DNA of 64,000 nt, from contig NZ_SGWR01000001.1 of assembly GCF_004217315.1 (NCBI RefSeq), forward strand, positions 558,001 to 622,000, read 5' to 3'. A program made the translations under genes and the position numbers. Positions 17,811-24,640 of the stretch are shown here, in pieces. How positions within the stretch are numbered: the stretch's first letter is position 1; each line of letters begins with the position of its first letter. The notes below the pieces were generated by a model. That model searched no databases. It had not been told where the DNA came from and saw only the letters and a list, made by a program, of their open reading frames with translations. This DNA is from Corticibacter populi. Lineage in GTDB: Bacteria > Pseudomonadota > Gammaproteobacteria > Burkholderiales > Burkholderiaceae_C.

Positions 17811-18478
17811 ACCGCCCTGACCTTCCGCGCAAAGGGCGGCATTGTAGGCAAGGACAGGTGCACCCAGACCCAGCTACCGCCGAATCACCAACAGGGGCCT
17901 TGGCGGCATTTTTTGATGGCAGGCTCCCGGGTATGGGATGTACTGTGGTACCAGCTTCCAGGCCAGAGAGCCGGCGAACTCAACCGATCCATCCTGCCGC
18001 TACGTGCGGCGATCCTGCCTAAACTTTGAGCATTGCAAGGATGGCGCAGGAGAACGCGCTCTCCCGCAACAACTTGTCCACAGGGTTCTCCACCAAGACT
18101 GTGGATGGGTTGGTATGGTGTACCATTGTGTAACAGTAGATGCAGTTGGCCACTTTCGGCCAGCCGCGGAAGTTCAGAAGGTGCTGTTCACCGTCTGCTT
18201 CGCAGCGATTGCTGTCTGTCGCTCCGGGTGCTACTACTTATGATGTCAGCGAGACTGCGGCTTATTACCGCGGCGACAATACATTTTTTCGACAATAGGC
18301 ATGAGCGGGCACAACTTGCCTGATGGACTTGTGAGACGGCATGCTCGACGAGTCAAAAATAACTGAGTTTGGTTGCGTACAAAGAATTGACAGTGTTGCA
18401 GATATATGAGCGGCTGGCTGTCATTAATATGGCTCCGTTAGGGTGTATGTTAAATTTCGAGTGGGAAAACGAAAAATA
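17811..18478. other. Long gap upstream of the ParB-like gene
   Basis: About 670 bases with no supported gene. TTGTCCACA and CTGTGGATG near 18070-18115 resemble opposed DnaA boxes. Copy 4 of the dispersed motif lies near 18140-18172 (GATGCAGTTGGCCACTTTCGGCC). From about 18240 the sequence becomes AT-richer. This might be a relic of a plasmid-like origin next to a parB-like gene. Confidence 0.35.
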
Positions 18479-18775
18479 ATGGTTTACGTAGATGATGCTG
18501 CGGTTCCGATGTACGGTTATACATGGTTTCACCTTATGGCTGATAGTGTCCAAGAGCTTCATGCATTCGCGGCCAACATAGGCATCCACAAACGTGCGTT
18601 CCATATCGGAGCTCGCCATCCCCATTACGATGTCACAGCAACTCAACGTCGGCACGCCATTCGCTATGGTGCCCGACCAATAAGTGCGCGGGAAGCTGTG
18701 TTGCTTAGCCGCCGAGTCGTGTCCGACGAGCCTCACGCTATCGCTCAATCTCCGCAGCTTTGCCTTTTCGTGTAG
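18479..18775 (+). CDS. DUF4031-family protein
   Basis: Protein of 98 residues matching DUF4031: it opens with MVYVDDAAVPMYGYTW, continues HLMADSVQELHAFAANIG and has the conserved HPHYDVTATQRRHAI segment. The function of the family is unknown; members are common in phages and mobile DNA. I start at ATG 18479 because the family begins at this methionine. An open frame on the other strand (18353-18820) is rejected. The gene sits in AT-rich surroundings unlike the GC-rich flanks, suggesting recent transfer. Confidence 0.75.
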   Translation: MVYVDDAAVPMYGYTWFHLMADSVQELHAFAANIGIHKRAFHIGARHPHYDVTATQRRHAIRYGARPISAREAVLLSRRVVSDEPHAIAQSPQLCLFV

Positions 18776-19041: not shown

Positions 19042-19362
19042 GTGGAAATCACCTTCGACACAAAGGAGTTGCGCGACCTTTGCGCAGACGAGGAGACCGC
19101 TGCTCAAAAATTGGGCTCGGTCGCTGCGGAATCGCTGAAGCACCGAATATCAGACATCCGTGCTGCCGACTCCATCGACGAGGTACTTGCGGGCAAGCCA
19201 CGCACCGGAATACACGAAGGGGCTGAGTGCTACTTCATCGATCTCCCACCGCCGTTTCGGGTGGCCGTCGTACCGGCCCATGGCACACCCCGCATGAAGC
19301 CTGACGGTTCCGCCGATTGGAGCCGTATCCGACGGATCAAAGTGGTCTCACTGCAGCCATAA
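19042..19362 (+). CDS. higB: HigB/RelE-superfamily toxin
   Basis: Protein of 106 residues with features of the HigB-like killer family: the N-terminal EITFDTKELRDLCADEETA helix pair, a central ECYFIDLPPPFRVAVVPAHG strand pair and a C-terminal WSRIRRIKVVSLQP strand. Such toxins are ribosome-dependent mRNA endonucleases. The start is a GTG with AAGGA 11 bases upstream. It precedes the antitoxin gene by 10 bases, the usual HigBA order. Confidence 0.75.
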   Translation: MEITFDTKELRDLCADEETAAQKLGSVAAESLKHRISDIRAADSIDEVLAGKPRTGIHEGAECYFIDLPPPFRVAVVPAHGTPRMKPDGSADWSRIRRIKVVSLQP

Positions 19363-19372
19363 AATTAGCCTT

Positions 19373-20449
19373 ATGAACACGTTCAAGCCAAATTGGGCAA
19401 GTCCTCCTGGCGCAACAGTGCTTGACCTTTTGCACGAGCGCCAAATTCCGGTTAAGGAACTGGCAGATAGAGCGCACAGAGACGTTCAGAGCGTCTCGCG
19501 ACTGATATACGGCGTCGAGCCTCTGACCGTCGACTGGGCCGAGTGCTTGTCCGCCATTCTGGGCGCAAGCCCAGAATTTTGGCTTCGGCGTGAGGAGATT
19601 TACCGCGTCGACCTGCGAAGGCTGTGTGAATCCACGGAAGTAGCCCCAGACAAGTGGCTATCCGATGTCCCTATCAATGATTTGGTCCGCTTCGGTTGGA
19701 TTAAGCAAGGCACATCCGCCAGTGAAACAACGTTGAACGCCTGTGCATTCTTCGGTGTCACAACCTCCAGCTCATTTGAACAGAAGTACAAACGCCTATT
19801 TCAGGCGTCGGCCTACCGTGCCAGCAGTGCGTATGTCACGCGGCCGACAGCAGTTGCAGCATGGCTGCGACAGGGCGAAATCGAAGCATCTGCTGTGGTC
19901 TGTGAACCCTGGAATCGTAACAAGCTTGCCAATTCCCTCAACTCGATTCGGGCATTGACGGTGGAGGCGGACCCTTCGAAGTTTCTGCCGGAACTCGAGA
20001 ACATCCTGGCTTCCTGTGGCGTAGCCATGGTGGTGGCACGGACACCGGAGGGATGCCGAGCGAGTGGGGCGACCCGTTTCCTGCATTCGGAGCAGGCCCT
20101 GATGCAGCTGAGCTTCCGCTACCTAGCTGATGACCAATTCTGGTTTACCGTCTTCCACGAGATTGGTCACCTGCTCCTGCATGCGCATGACGAGCTCTTC
20201 CTGGAAGGGCTTGAAGATAGGAGCAACGAGGCCGAGCGAGAAGCGGATGAATTCGCCTTGGACACGCTTTTCGAAAAGGTCGGTGCCGACGCTCTCGATA
20301 AGGTAGAGCCTTCATTGCTTGGCATCAAACGACTGGCCCGCCGAGCAGGCATTTCCGACGGGATTGTGGTGGGCCAGCTCCAAAGGCGTGAGCGGGTGCC
20401 TTATAGCCATTTCAACAAGCTGAAGGCCCGCTACGCGTGGGCCGACTAG
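19373..20449 (+). CDS. higA: HigA-like XRE antitoxin fused to ImmA/IrrE metallopeptidase
   Basis: Protein of 358 residues. The N-terminal XRE helix-turn-helix (about 10-75, KELADRAHRDVQSVSRLIYG) should bind the operator and neutralise HigB. The C-terminal ImmA/IrrE (COG2856-type) peptidase domain has FHEIGHLLLHAH (HExxH near residue 263) and NEAEREADEFALDTL with the third ligand. ImmA-type proteases cleave repressors in mobile elements, so this antitoxin may respond to stress by proteolysis. Its end overlaps by four bases the convergent end of the pyrophosphorylase-like gene. Confidence 0.85.
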   Translation: MNTFKPNWASPPGATVLDLLHERQIPVKELADRAHRDVQSVSRLIYGVEPLTVDWAECLSAILGASPEFWLRREEIYRVDLRRLCESTEVAPDKWLSDVPINDLVRFGWIKQGTSASETTLNACAFFGVTTSSSFEQKYKRLFQASAYRASSAYVTRPTAVAAWLRQGEIEASAVVCEPWNRNKLANSLNSIRALTVEADPSKFLPELENILASCGVAMVVARTPEGCRASGATRFLHSEQALMQLSFRYLADDQFWFTVFHEIGHLLLHAHDELFLEGLEDRSNEAEREADEFALDTLFEKVGADALDKVEPSLLGIKRLARRAGISDGIVVGQLQRRERVPYSHFNKLKARYAWAD

Positions 20450-21384
20450 CCCCTGAAGTACTTATAGACACCGGGATTCTTGCCCCAGTTGCACATGGCG
20501 TCTTCCATCTCTTGCATACCAACGCCCAGATGGACGCCGAGGATCTGTGTCCTGCGTTCCAGTTCAACCAACGAGAGTTGCTGGGCCCCCCCCTCGAACA
20601 ACAGGCGTGCGCCCTTGTTTGGTCCGTTGGTCGAGGCATCTAGGTAGGGTCGGCCAGGTTTGATGTTCACGAAGCCAAGCTTCTGAATCATGGTTAGGTA
20701 GTCGAAGCGACCAATCCGGCCGAAGGAGGCAACCGACCGCATGGACCGGTAGAGCTTCTCGAAGGCCTGTGCAGGGTCATTGTTGGATTGCACCAGCGCC
20801 AAATCGAACAAGTTGGCATGGTTACCGGTGGCACTTACCCATTTCACATAGGTCTCGAACGCGTGCCCCGTACCGTTCTGCTTCGTGCCCGACAGACTCA
20901 GATACTTCCGATGATTGCCGAAACCGCGTCGTGAGCCGCGGCGCAGCTCTCCTTCATTTTGGTCCAGCCACGCTTTCATACCGGCGATATCTGCTTTCAC
21001 GGCAGCAAAAGTCCAAGGAGCTCGTTGGCCCAGGGCACTGTAGAAGTCCCGCACATAGCGGTAGCCGGAGGCCGGATGGCGTCCGAAGTGCACGAACAGG
21101 AATACGAGCCAGCAGGCCTCGTCAAAGTCACCCGCCTGCTGCTTGAGCCTAGCGGCCCGGATAGGATCGAAGGCTGGGCTGAGACCGTCGGCGCGGTCGG
21201 GATGTATATCGCGATGGGTAACTACTTTGACGAAGTCGACACGGCGCACACTGTCAATCATCTGGCGGATGAAGACATCCTGGTGCTGTGGATCGTTCAG
21301 TCCCGGTAGTGCAAAGTCGTTCTGGATGCAGTTAGCAATACCGTGGCTCAGCTTCTTGGCCAGTTTCTCGACCTTCTTCCTCAT
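20446..21384 (-). CDS. Alpha-glutamyl/putrescinyl thymine pyrophosphorylase-like protein (clade 3)
   Basis: Protein of 312 residues that resembles the aGPT-Pplase clade 3 family, related to the helical domain of 5-hydroxymethyl-dU kinases. These are predicted enzymes of hypermodified pyrimidine synthesis in phage and bacterial DNA. Matching segments are VFLFVHFGRHPASGYRYVRDFY, RRGFGNHRKY, FGRIGRFDYLTMI, GARLLFEGG and EDAMCNWGKNP near the end. I start at ATG 21384, which overlaps the upstream stop as ATGA and has AGGAG 8 bases before. It is the last gene of a three-gene operon with a thymidylate-synthase homologue and a UDG-fold protein. The family call is from recalled sequence pattern. Confidence 0.7.
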   Translation of the reverse strand: MRKKVEKLAKKLSHGIANCIQNDFALPGLNDPQHQDVFIRQMIDSVRRVDFVKVVTHRDIHPDRADGLSPAFDPIRAARLKQQAGDFDEACWLVFLFVHFGRHPASGYRYVRDFYSALGQRAPWTFAAVKADIAGMKAWLDQNEGELRRGSRRGFGNHRKYLSLSGTKQNGTGHAFETYVKWVSATGNHANLFDLALVQSNNDPAQAFEKLYRSMRSVASFGRIGRFDYLTMIQKLGFVNIKPGRPYLDASTNGPNKGARLLFEGGAQQLSLVELERRTQILGVHLGVGMQEMEDAMCNWGKNPGVYKYFRG

Positions 21385-22193
21385 ACAAGCACTCCTGCCG
21401 ATTGGCGGCCTATCCACGTTGAAATGTTGGCGATCGCCTGAGTGGTTACGCCAAAGCTGCTCTGGATGTTGTGATTGAAACCCAGCACCAGTAGCTTGCG
21501 ACGAAGGGGAATGCTCCCCACCTCGGAGATGCGACCGATGTATGAGATGCCTTGTACGCGCCCGTCTTGAAGCGCCCAGGATGGTTCGACTTGAGACCTG
21601 AGGCTGTCAGCAACCACCAGTCGGCTGAACTCCCTGACCACGGTCGCTCCGTTAAGTACAAGTACCCTGATATCCGAGGCGCTGAGCGTGCGCGCCAGCG
21701 AGGGAGCGCCAAGCTCAATCAACCTGGCCTGATGGCCACGAGGCAGCGCAGACCACTTGTTCGCGGTGGCGAACGGCACCAGGTCCAGATGGCAGGCGCT
21801 TTCGCCGATGCGGCTATAGTAGGACGCTCCGGTCTTGGCCAAAATCCTGTCCAGTCGCTTGAACCACTGGTCATACGGATTCCGAAAGAAGTAGTCCTCA
21901 CAGGTTTCCCAGATGCGCTGCACCCCCAGGCGAGCTACCTCGCTCCAGTTCGTCGCACGCAGACTGCCTAGAGATTCAAATCGGTTGTAGGGCTCAAGCA
22001 GTTGCTCGCCGACACGGTCTACAAACTCCAGGTTGCTCGGGTTCAAGCCCAGTGTTGCTACCTTGCTCACGGCCGGATTCCCGAACGAAACAACCGGCGA
22101 GGCCCACGGGATAGCACCAAGAGCGACGGGTGCCCCCTCATTCAAGATAGAAACCAGCGTACCGACCTCCTTGAGGAGAGCCTCGCTGCTCAT
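21381..22193 (-). CDS. Uracil-DNA-glycosylase-fold protein
   Basis: Protein of 270 residues, probably of the UDG superfamily. Near residue 45 VATLGLNPSNLEF matches the GxNPS version of UDG motif A, the water-activating and phosphate loop. LVLNGATVVREF (about 180) fits a central strand. GFNHNIQSSFGV (about 245) contains a C-terminal His-x-x-x-Ser that may stand for motif B. No 4Cys iron-sulphur pattern is seen. It may excise or recognise a modified base, or bind a nucleotide. ATGA overlaps on both sides show tight coupling with the neighbouring genes. Strong ribosome binding site AAAGGAG. Confidence 0.65.
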   Translation of the reverse strand: MSSEALLKEVGTLVSILNEGAPVALGAIPWASPVVSFGNPAVSKVATLGLNPSNLEFVDRVGEQLLEPYNRFESLGSLRATNWSEVARLGVQRIWETCEDYFFRNPYDQWFKRLDRILAKTGASYYSRIGESACHLDLVPFATANKWSALPRGHQARLIELGAPSLARTLSASDIRVLVLNGATVVREFSRLVVADSLRSQVEPSWALQDGRVQGISYIGRISEVGSIPLRRKLLVLGFNHNIQSSFGVTTQAIANISTWIGRQSAGVLV

Positions 22194-23203
22194 GGCGTGA
22201 CTCCTTTAGCTGCATCTGCAATCAGAAGATCCTGCTTCGCTTCAACGAACATCTTGTAGACGGTAGGCCTCAGCCGTTCAGTAAGGCCTTTGATGACCAA
22301 AAGGTCCTTTTCCTTGTAAGCCCGGTAGGCATCTAGCAGGTGGGCTAGCTCTTGCCAGTATGAGTCCCACACTGGCTGGGAGTTGGCCGCACCGCGTTCG
22401 CGGAGACCCTGCTCGTAGGCCTGAAGCTGCTTGACGTTATCCCAGGGGTCACCCATTGGCATCGGAGGCATTGCAATCTTGGATTGATAGCCCTCTTCAA
22501 GATATCGTGCCGCGCGTGCTGCGTGCTTCTTGTACAGGTGCAGGCTTCCTGCACAGTGCTTGTACTCGCCCACCTCCATTCCAACAGAGCGGGCCACCAG
22601 TTCCTGGAGCATGGTGAAAGAGAAGACGTCATGCGGAAGACCAAGGAAGGCATCGTTCGAACGCATGGAAACGAACATGTGGAGTCGGTCGTCTCGTGCC
22701 ATGAACTGCAAGGTGCACGTACAAGGAATCGACTTATATGGCTTCAGCAAGTCTGTGGCATCGAAAAGCTGAATCACCGCACGCCTAGACGATGGCTTTT
22801 CCTTAAGCAGCTTGATGACGTTCGCCATCTGGTCCGCACCATTGAATGAAAATAGCCGTTCGCCATAGCCGCTGCGCACGGTAACCTGGTCGTCTGACTC
22901 GTCCTGGAAAACGCCGGGAACGTAGTAGTCAATGAAATCGAGCTTGGTATCGCGCGACAGGTACCACAAGAGCTCTCCAAGGGCACTGAACACCTTACTC
23001 TTGTCTTCGCTTCGGCTCAAACGGGCTCGGGGGTTCTTCAGATGAAGAAGCACACCGAACAGTTCGGTGAAATCGCCTCTGCTGGCCTTGACGCTGGTTC
23101 TCTCCGCGAGCAGCGCCTTGAGGACGTCATACAACATGTCGTCCAACGTATCGTGCGAGCCGAACACTTTCCCTCCCTTGTCAATTTGCCGGGCTAGCCA
23201 CAT
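22190..23203 (-). CDS. Thymidylate-synthase homologue with Asn-to-Asp switch (predicted pyrimidine hydroxymethylase)
   Basis: Thymidylate-synthase fold of 337 residues. The catalytic Cys is in IPCTCTLQF (Cys 161 of this start). The phosphate-binding segment is MRSNDAFLGLPHD and the substrate His/Tyr pair lies in CAGSLHLYKKH. E. coli ThyA has N177 in FLGLPFN; here the residue is Asp (D192), as in T4 dCMP hydroxymethylase (Asp179), which selects cytosine over uracil. I therefore infer a (d)CMP-type substrate, product either methyl- or hydroxymethyl-cytidylate. The start is uncertain: ATG 23203, 23278 or further upstream. First gene of the operon, so it would feed the other two. Confidence 0.75.
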   Translation of the reverse strand: MWLARQIDKGGKVFGSHDTLDDMLYDVLKALLAERTSVKASRGDFTELFGVLLHLKNPRARLSRSEDKSKVFSALGELLWYLSRDTKLDFIDYYVPGVFQDESDDQVTVRSGYGERLFSFNGADQMANVIKLLKEKPSSRRAVIQLFDATDLLKPYKSIPCTCTLQFMARDDRLHMFVSMRSNDAFLGLPHDVFSFTMLQELVARSVGMEVGEYKHCAGSLHLYKKHAARAARYLEEGYQSKIAMPPMPMGDPWDNVKQLQAYEQGLRERGAANSQPVWDSYWQELAHLLDAYRAYKEKDLLVIKGLTERLRPTVYKMFVEAKQDLLIADAAKGVTP

Positions 23204-23770
23204 ATTGGGGCCGGATACAAATAGTAGCAGATCGTAGCTATAGGGCGGTAGTCTGCCTCCGGCGCAGGCGCCTGCCATGACTTTCTTTGTATGCCAGTGA
23301 CATTGCTTGAGCAGGCCGCATGGTCTCACCGTTTCAGAGGCCCTCAAGGTAACGGTTACGCAATGGATCTGGAGTCCGAGTTCACTGCGGTTGGAAGCGG
23401 TTGACCGTCGATATTAGCGATTAATTCGTGAATGTCCATTTACCTAACCGCTCATCAAGGACCTGTCCGAGAGGTGCAGCAGCCGCTCAGTGCTCACTGT
23501 GGTCAATGTCAGGTTTCGACAGCCACTGTCATTAGCCAGTCAACCCTGAATGACAGCACCCAGCCTAAAGTGACTCCTCTCGTTGCTTAGTTGGCTTTGC
23601 AGCGTGTGCCGCAGTTCATGTATTTAGGTCGAACTTCCGGTTTCAGCCTTTTCCAGTCACTATCGAAAAAGTTGCGAGCTTCCACTCTGGGTCGCCTGCA
23701 GAAGTCCGCACTGTGACCAATTTCATCAACATAGGCGAGATCGGTCCAGCCACCTCAGCACACGCGCACG
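23204..23770. other. Gap upstream of the modification operon
   Basis: About 570 bases with no supported gene. The first 145 bases may belong to a longer form of the thymidylate-synthase homologue. The remainder should hold the operon promoter. The ends of several short frames here have no protein character. Confidence 0.4.
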
Positions 23771-24568
23771 TCAGTCGCCAGAGTATGCCCGCACGCCGCG
23801 ACATTTCGGGAATGCCACACAGCCCCAGAAACGGCTCTCACCTGCCGGCGCGTTGCGTCGCTGTCTCAGCACCATGGCACCGTCGCAGCGTGGGCACTTG
23901 GGTTCACCTCCCTGTGATGGCGCATTTTCGGCCGCTGCTTTGGCCTTGAGATTCATCACATGCTGGCGGTGGGTGGCCCAGTTTGGTGTCAGGCGCCCTG
24001 CTTCGATCATGGCCCGCGCATGTTCGACCTGGTCCTCGGTCAGCACGGGCTCTTGGAACTGCCGGATGTAGTCTACATACCCCGCGTTCTGGGTGACATT
24101 GGCCGGCATGTCGGTCTTGAACGTGCAGTCTCCGGTGAAGACCACCAGCGAGTGGCATACGTCATCGGGCAGGTTCAACGCTGCCTGCAGGGCCATCAGG
24201 TGCTTGTAGTTCTGGCGCAGCGGGTTCTGGAATCGGAAGCTGTTCCGGTAGATCTTCTGGGTCCATTGCGCATCACGCTCGCGCCCGTAGATCCAGCCTT
24301 TCATGTGCTTGGTCTCCACCACGAAAATCCCAAAGCGGGAGACAAAGATATGGTCGATCTGCGTACTGCCATCGATCGTTGGCAGCGTGACGTTGTGGAT
24401 GCAGTGGTAGGTTTCTTTGGGCAGTCGCAGGCGGGCAATCAATCGAACCCACCCTTCCCCGACCATGCCCTTGACGATCGGCAGGCGCAGAATGCCAACC
24501 ACCACGGCCAGCGCGAACGTCCACCACAGGTACTGAAACAAGGGCTCGAGTACTGGCGTCATGTTCAT
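23771..24568 (-). CDS. NERD-domain protein with C-terminal topoisomerase zinc finger
   Basis: Protein of 265 residues. A hydrophobic N-terminal helix (about 8-28) probably anchors it in the membrane. The NERD (nuclease-related) domain follows: IDHIFVSRFGIFVVETKHMKGWIYG, with D and ExK nuclease-like residues. A C-terminal Cys4 topoisomerase-type zinc finger has CPRC and a later CVAFPKCRG. NERD proteins are widespread and suspected nucleases. ATG 24568 has AGGAGG upstream. It may belong with the neighbouring defence-like operon. Confidence 0.8.
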   Translation of the reverse strand: MNMTPVLEPLFQYLWWTFALAVVVGILRLPIVKGMVGEGWVRLIARLRLPKETYHCIHNVTLPTIDGSTQIDHIFVSRFGIFVVETKHMKGWIYGRERDAQWTQKIYRNSFRFQNPLRQNYKHLMALQAALNLPDDVCHSLVVFTGDCTFKTDMPANVTQNAGYVDYIRQFQEPVLTEDQVEHARAMIEAGRLTPNWATHRQHVMNLKAKAAAENAPSQGGEPKCPRCDGAMVLRQRRNAPAGESRFWGCVAFPKCRGVRAYSGD

Positions 24569-24640
24569 GGCTCCTCCTGCTCTCATTGACCATCGATCGT
24601 TTACATTTTCCTACAAATTGAATGATAACGAAATCAGTGG

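Follow-up and report, generated by a model that had tools for sequence, protein, structure and literature searches.

An operon for a predicted dCMP hydroxymethylase and an aGPT-Pplase3 protein recurs beside an XRE-M78 protease pair in bacteria

A 64,000-nucleotide stretch of the Corticibacter populi genome (contig NZ_SGWR01000001.1, positions 558,001 to 622,000; referred to as the window and numbered from its first letter) carries a three-gene operon on the reverse strand that converges on a pair of genes on the forward strand. The first gene of the operon (22190–23203, −) encodes a thymidylate-synthase-family protein that is predicted to be a deoxycytidine monophosphate (dCMP) hydroxymethylase. 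The second (21381–22193, −) encodes a possible member of the uracil-DNA glycosylase (UDG) superfamily, and the third (20446–21384, −) encodes an aGPT-Pplase clade 3 protein (aGPT-Pplase3). The convergent pair consists of a gene (19373–20449, +) for an XRE (HigA-like) domain fused to an M78/ImmA metallopeptidase, called XRE-M78 here (PF06114, 27.2 bits, cut-off 22), and, just upstream of it, a gene (19042–19362, +) for a HigB-like small protein, named by family membership. As an original prediction made from the sequence of the window had described, the operon genes are coupled by ATGA overlaps, 4 bases each, at both junctions. The XRE-M78 and aGPT-Pplase3 genes lie tail to tail and their ends also overlap by 4 bases. 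That prediction placed the operon at 20446–23347; the low end stands, and position 23347 belongs to an upstream TTG, the ATG of the synthase being at 23203. The start of the synthase is uncertain, as a GTG 12 codons further in is the other candidate, and its residues are counted from the ATG.

The same genes in the same order were found in unrelated genomes. A scan of 84,980 species genomes by pattern and tblastn gave 205 stretches with a relative of the aGPT-Pplase3 protein, of which the best 80 were kept. Viral contigs contributed 25 loci, and 8 plasmids carried a relative, every one of them below 60% identity (tblastn). Composition was counted with five profiles in 115 loci, including the window and dropping three loci of its own genome. 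The loci were collected through the aGPT-Pplase3 gene and are not all independent: for example, L003 and L069 are apparently the same record, and seven of the viral loci are repeats (L-numbers denote loci and G000 the window's own genome). All genes except the UDG-like one were present in 68 loci, and all five in 38. Four loci had the synthase, aGPT-Pplase3, and XRE-M78 only, two had the synthase, UDG-like, and aGPT-Pplase3 genes only, and single loci lacked only the synthase, lacked only the HigB-like gene, or were a contig end with the protease pair alone. Among the 114 loci with aGPT-Pplase3, the synthase was found in 113 (L088 has no match), XRE-M78 in 112, and the HigB-like gene in 107. 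In the two loci without XRE-M78 (L080 and L093) the sequence ends within ~15 bases of the aGPT-Pplase3 gene. In other words, XRE-M78 was present in 112 of 112 loci that could be evaluated. The aGPT-Pplase3 and XRE-M78 genes are on opposite strands in 111 of these 112 (the exception is L041) and nearly touch, at a median distance of 5 on a scale where the 4-base overlap of the window is 0.

Thus, the unit is larger than the trio of operon genes that was originally proposed. It comprises the operon and a near-constant XRE-M78/HigB-like pair, with optional UDG-like and DUF4031 genes. The expected recurrence of the genes in unrelated genomes was found in several phyla, and the idea that the unit is the trio was rejected because the UDG-like gene is dispensable (present in 42 of the 114 loci) while XRE-M78 is not missing from any evaluable locus. 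The original prediction had noted the HigBA genes (19042–20449, +) as neighbors; they are present, and what it overlooked is their near-constant membership in the unit. Its observation is real, and its interpretation is partly supported. The carriers presumably belong to Pseudomonadota, Acidobacteriota, Chloroflexota, Actinomycetota, Bacteroidota, Planctomycetota, Gemmatimonadota, and Myxococcota, with Leptospira carrying the module on a plasmid. The conservation of gene order in several phyla indicates more than chance. The module is sporadic, with 3 carriers among 369 genomes of the class and 1 among 60 relatives (the window's own genome being counted in both), and it is carried on plasmids and in viral contigs. 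A comparison of flanks within the genus for an empty site gave only short, patchy matches. Two module copies lie near both ends of one viral contig of 118644 bases (L106 and L107), perhaps as a terminal repeat or an assembly artefact.

Which nucleotide would the synthase act on? The protein matches Thymidylat_synt in Pfam (PF00303, 108 bits), the family that had been expected for it. Its closest solved relatives are entries of MilA, the CMP 5-hydroxymethylase of mildiomycin (best 5b6d, E 3.4e-47, with the alignment running through the C-terminal part); thymidylate synthases follow at 7e-24 and weaker. Asp192 of the synthase aligns with Asn of the ThyA of its own genome and with Asp of MilA and of two annotated phage dCMP hydroxymethylases. 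Hence, the replacement of ThyA Asn177 by Asp was read correctly from the window. Module synthases were compared in an alignment of 108 rows, from which rows below 85% profile coverage and own-genome duplicates had been excluded beforehand and which was reduced to 101 by the removal of 7 near-copies. All 101 have Asp at the base site and all keep the Cys nucleophile and the His and Tyr that had been described as the substrate pair. At the two sugar sites, all 101 have Ser, and 97 have Arg, the other 4 having Lys. The residues of the window's synthase are Arg140, Cys161, Ser182, and Asp192. Among 12 control sequences, Asp was found in five (the two annotated dCMP hydroxymethylases, one annotated pyrimidine hydroxymethylase, phage G gp319, and MilA) and Asn in seven (the own ThyA, a T4-like td protein, and five other phage synthases), and MilA alone combined Lys and Ala at the sugar sites.

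These sites have been studied in MilA. According to that study, enzymes for cytosine substrates have Asp at position 186 and those for uracil substrates have Asn, Lys133 and Ala176 favor CMP, Arg and Ser are found in deoxynucleotide enzymes, and a double change to Ser and Arg abolished CMP activity (PMC5175136). Because the module synthases have Ser and Arg in place of the Ala and Lys of MilA, dCMP rather than CMP is the predicted substrate, and the synthase is predicted to convert dCMP to 5-hydroxymethyl-dCMP. The residue evidence for this predicted step is strong. The Asp signature, together with MilA as the best solved and sister relative, also supports the earlier view of the protein as a cytosine-nucleotide synthase. 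In a tree of 40 rows, 28 of which were drawn from the module, MilA is sister to a group that holds the module synthases (95/86). Both annotated dCMP hydroxymethylases are on very long branches, one of them inside the module group, and their placement is unsafe for that reason. A branch that separates the module synthases from all other rows is found in only 16% of bootstrap trees. With the two annotated phage enzymes, which represent the T4 gp42 type, they share Asp, Ser, Arg, Cys, His, and Tyr; unlike those enzymes, they are bacterial and part of a near-constant module. Phage matches of the window's synthase are 28–36% identical in the 20 best rows. A role as a second ThyA for dTMP was rejected on the basis of the Asp signature and of a separate ThyA in the genome (G000:C2:439443).

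The kinship with MilA raises the possibility that the module belongs to nucleoside secondary metabolism of the mildiomycin or bacimethrin kind, in which MilA is followed by a glycosidase, with the XRE-M78 pair acting as a regulator. The sister position of MilA is consistent with this idea, and the succession of a synthase and a glycosidase-like gene parallels that of MilA and MilB (PMC4081090). However, the sugar sites carry the deoxy signature instead of the Ala and Lys of MilA, the module has no additional gene family as a constant neighbor, and the toxin-antitoxin-like partner is near-constant. Secondary metabolism is thus a very improbable explanation.

The third protein of the operon matches aGPT-Pplase3 (PF18746, 308.8 bits, cut-off 25) and also ADDT, the amino acid:DNA transferase family (PF18724, 208 bits). 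The assignment to an aGPT-Pplase clade-3-like protein is borne out by the first of these matches; this Pfam family is one of pyrimidine hypermodification. A motif, ED..CNW.K.P, is invariant in an alignment of 57 aGPT-Pplase3 proteins. From what is known at the level of the family, the protein is predicted to elaborate the 5-hydroxymethyl group, either by replacing it or by extending it. In a Microbacteriaceae genome, a single 640-residue frame encodes both the synthase and aGPT-Pplase3 (L054:5945-7864, +), a natural fusion. No match to the aGPT-Pplase3 protein was found in 50,697 phage records (tblastn, 1e-5). The three operon proteins had no match in PADLOC, and the second and third had no useful match in NCBIfam and PHROGs. 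The aGPT-Pplase3 gene of the Leptospira plasmid (L007:5926-6859, +) is annotated in two pieces.

Enzymes of the aGPT type have a known role on phage DNA. In phages, thymine hypermodification involves enzymes of the aGPT-Pplase and ADDT families and brings a hydroxymethyl kinase. The module resembles this system in that the third protein falls in these Pfam families; it differs in that the protein belongs to clade 3 and that no hydroxymethyl kinase was recognized as a fixed neighbor, in a general clustering that included no run of a kinase profile. By the same logic, the module could hypermodify cytosine in the DNA of the host or of the element that carries it, and the XRE-M78/HigB-like pair would be an addiction part that retains the module. 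A synthase combined with an aGPT/ADDT protein follows the logic of phage DNA hypermodification, the module travels on plasmids and in viral contigs, and Mrr-like endonuclease genes lie no more than 0.8 kb away in 5 of 108 loci. However, no restriction enzyme is fixed in the module. Sporadic copies on large chromosomes would demand genome-wide replacement of the base or sequence-specific targeting, and no reader was recognized. Such marking of the carrier's own DNA is improbable.

XRE-M78 resembles a component of a known defense system, and its partner may do so too. The HExxH residues are conserved in 105 of 105 XRE-M78 proteins, and the best PADLOC match of the window's protein is component B of PD-Lambda-2 (PD-Lambda-2_B, PDLC03982, 87.6 bits, 2.5e-25). 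Its match to the HigA family TIGR02607 reached 24.9 bits against a cut-off of 47.7. The HigB-like protein of the window has no Pfam match, and one of four HigB-like relatives gave a weak HigB-like_toxin match (E 0.035). PD-Lambda-2 of E. coli consists of a HigB-like gene, an XRE-peptidase gene, and a third gene, and is a proven phage defense of a toxin-antitoxin-like kind; according to its description, the XRE-peptidase is toxic on its own, the cell is rescued by the HigB-like partner, and the third gene is required for defense against lambda (PMC9519451). The module is like PD-Lambda-2 in joining an XRE-peptidase fusion, with what may be a corresponding HigB-like gene, to further genes. It is unlike PD-Lambda-2 in what these genes are: the third component of PD-Lambda-2 is related to a P4 phage antitoxin, whereas the module has the convergent operon of synthase, aGPT-Pplase3, and optional UDG-like gene. 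No component related to the P4 antitoxin was recognized beside the pair in the window, component C itself lying outside the comparison.

Does the pair belong to the operon, or does it merely travel with it? A search of viral contigs from the protease side gave 59 loci, 24 with aGPT-Pplase3 and 35 without, and many of the 59 lie on contigs already found through aGPT-Pplase3. XRE-M78 proteins scored 404–521 bits in the 24 loci with aGPT-Pplase3 and 66–392 bits in the 35 without it, on a profile that was built from nine module proteins and hence favors them. The tree is free of that bias. In it, the window's XRE-M78 and 34 random module proteins were compared with 21 operon-free relatives scoring above 200 bits. 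The 35 module proteins formed one clade (100/99) that was recovered in all 200 bootstrap trees. The XRE-M78/HigB-like pair therefore also exists without the operon, and the sampled clade appears, from the tree, to be dedicated to the operon. The pair looks like a portable effector. Two operon-free relatives of XRE-M78 (L131 and L148) have other companions: one lies beside a possible type I restriction specificity gene, a reading made without a scan, and the other beside a different large protein.

These data also bear on the explanation that the module is two independent units that travel together, namely an operon for nucleotide salvage or detoxification and an ordinary toxin-antitoxin pair that stabilizes plasmids. 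The 35 of 59 viral loci in which a related XRE-M78, often with a HigB-like gene, lacks aGPT-Pplase3 are in line with it, a few of them being unjudgeable as the sequence ends within ~350 bases of the protease gene (e.g., L136, L152, L161, L167, and L175). Against it, all XRE-M78 proteins sampled from the module fall into one clade and the tail-to-tail placement is kept across phyla, which argues against free exchange of the pair. Independent units are thus a distinctly improbable explanation.

Is the product of the operon a DNA precursor or a free nucleotide? Phages that incorporate hydroxymethyl-dCMP into DNA bring a deoxynucleoside monophosphate kinase. Neither a nucleotide kinase nor a hydroxymethyl kinase was a fixed neighbor of the module in the general clustering, most clusters of which have no assigned function. 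The lack of a fixed kinase argues mildly against a DNA precursor and mildly favors a free nucleotide product. A free nucleotide product, together with the precedent of PD-Lambda-2, leads to a model in which the nucleotide operon would inform the protease switch.

The favored explanation, to which we assign a probability of about one in three, is that the locus serves phage defense or addiction: a toxin-antitoxin-like switch would be coupled to an operon making a modified deoxycytidine nucleotide, and this nucleotide would hold the protease in check. Gene content, gene order, conserved residues, and the co-inheritance of operon and protease are the observations from which we infer its catalytic steps, its regulatory link, and its role in defense. 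The synthase would convert dCMP and methylene-tetrahydrofolate to 5-hydroxymethyl-dCMP, and the aGPT-Pplase3 protein would then replace or extend the 5-hydroxymethyl group. The resulting small molecule would restrain the XRE-M78 protease, either directly or via the HigB-like protein. When a phage takes over or depletes the dCMP/dCTP or folate pool, this molecule would be lost, the protease would be released, and the infected cell would stop growing (abortive infection). The optional UDG-like protein may remove the odd base from the nucleotide or from DNA. The module, which looks mobile, probably protects its carrier against viruses.

Another model involves the second protein of the operon. The match of this protein to Pfam UDG is below the cut-off (PF03167, E 0.19, 12.2 bits against 24.3), and only 2 of 37 members of its family match that model at E up to 1. 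The same model, run over the window's own genome at E up to 1, found four other proteins and not this one; these four UDG-superfamily proteins, on contigs C2, C3, and C5 of G000, score above the Pfam cut-off. Across 37 aligned members of the family, the motifs GLNPSN and G(F/Y)NHN.QSS.G are conserved, and in our reading they are similar to motifs I and II of UDGs. When the family was compared by profile with a cluster of 23 UDG-superfamily proteins, 48 columns could be aligned, covering motif I only (Prob 6%, P 0.006). The score was 27.1, compared with a best of 24.9 for 60 column shuffles (none of the 60 as high) and a best of 22.9 for four unrelated alignments. A second cluster of 7 UDGs gave no profile match to the protein. 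Membership in the UDG superfamily is thus only suggestive, and the UDG fold originally assigned to the protein is weakened to a Pfam match below the cut-off and one profile alignment at motif I. On a tree of aGPT-Pplase3 proteins (61 of 105 rows), the UDG-like gene needs 11 changes (10–13 in bootstrap trees), of which well-supported branches force 3, indicating an accessory that was gained or lost repeatedly. In one locus (L020) it sits between the aGPT-Pplase3 gene and XRE-M78. A gene upstream of the synthase in two Rhizobiaceae plasmids was rejected as UDG-like (13–15% identity); one copy has a weak DUF5677 match.

A glycosylase-like gene linked to the operon in 42 of 114 loci suggests a model of poisoned DNA. 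XRE-M78 would act as a repressor whose hold is lifted by infection, and the modified dCTP then made through the operon would enter replicating phage DNA. Either the UDG-like protein or host repair would excise the odd base to leave abasic sites. The ADDT match of the third protein fits this model. Further precedent comes from Brig1 and Brig3, UDG-superfamily proteins that are reported to defend by excising hydroxymethylcytosine derivatives (PMC11078745, PMC13160076); the second protein of the module differs from them in that it is optional and its place in the superfamily is tentative. However, no kinase is fixed in the module, as far as neighbor clusters that mostly have no assigned function can tell, the UDG fold is not established, and the UDG-like gene needs 11 changes on the tree, though only 3 are forced. 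Poisoning of phage DNA is nearly as good an explanation as the nucleotide-guarded protease, and like it is possible rather than likely.

Several points weigh against the nucleotide-guarded protease. The link from nucleotide to protease is one that we purely infer. The PD-Lambda-2 match is limited to the protease part, and PADLOC gave nothing for the HigB-like protein. A role at the DNA level would agree as well or better with the UDG-like gene and with what aGPT-type enzymes do on phage DNA. The missing-kinase argument is weak, since the neighbor clusters mostly have no assigned functions and kinases elsewhere in the genomes lay outside the search. Defense-type neighbors are a description and not an enrichment, as the scan had no background.

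A broader form of the favored explanation is more tentative. The module may be a widespread, uncharacterized bacterial immune module whose own hypermodified deoxycytidine nucleotide is a private signal or guarded metabolite that silences a toxic XRE-M78 until a phage disturbs the cytosine pool. If so, a nucleotide-modification chemistry so far known from phage DNA would serve as a host immune sensor. Modified cytosines derived from dCMP are a phage hallmark, and this picture would be reversed by a host module that joins synthesis of a hydroxymethyl-dCMP derivative to a PD-Lambda-2-like pair. Toxic XRE-M78 proteins would gain a concrete candidate trigger, the aGPT-Pplase3 family would gain a biological setting, and a new set of candidate pyrimidine enzymes is offered.

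Parts of this gene set may have been noticed before. In the available text of DefensePredictor (2026, PMC13092281), aGPT-Pplase is a predicted, unvalidated defense domain, the validated domains include thymidylate synthase and 5-hydroxymethyluracil kinase, the legend of Fig. 6F defines UDG and helix-turn-helix (HTH), and a 2015 bioinformatic study is cited for several predicted defense domains. That text gives no mechanism for aGPT-Pplase, which may or may not belong there to the same gene set. A search of titles and abstract openings, covering few subscription papers, found no description of the synthase, aGPT-Pplase3, and XRE-M78 together. What we claim is the anatomy described here, with the near-obligate XRE-M78 partner, the dCMP signature, and the optional UDG-like and DUF4031 genes; the first sight of the gene set is not claimed.

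The surroundings of the module are variable. A DUF4031 protein is encoded upstream of the HigB-like gene in the window (18443–18775, +; PF13223, 90.2 bits), and in 21 of 108 loci a DUF4031 gene is part of the module or at most 1.3 kb away. Apart from DUF4031, no neighbor family was common to more than 12 of the loci clustered, and most clusters have no assigned function. The scan of neighbors covered 64 open reading frames picked from the 90 nearest of 595 candidates, with the best 25 of 186 PADLOC and 25 of 61 Pfam families given. Defense and mobility genes among the matches listed are type I and type III restriction-modification, SIR2, Shedu, integrases, and a relaxase. The NERD gene that had been named as a neighbor of the operon was rejected as a part of the module because no NERD family is among its recurrent neighbors; in the window, this NERD-domain gene (23771–24586, −) has a weak match to a topoisomerase-type zinc ribbon and a weak PglW match. 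The Mrr-like restriction-endonuclease genes lie upstream of the synthase in L009 (3408–4286, −), L061, L071, L083, and L092, and Mrr_cat was found in the member from L009. In 8 of 108 loci, a conserved small family with frames of 133–262 residues follows the HigB-like gene (L109:4801-5502, −; L010; and L110–L115). The frame in L109 has no Pfam match, and a MazG-like name considered for a gene family beside 8 of 108 loci was dropped for want of a Pfam match.

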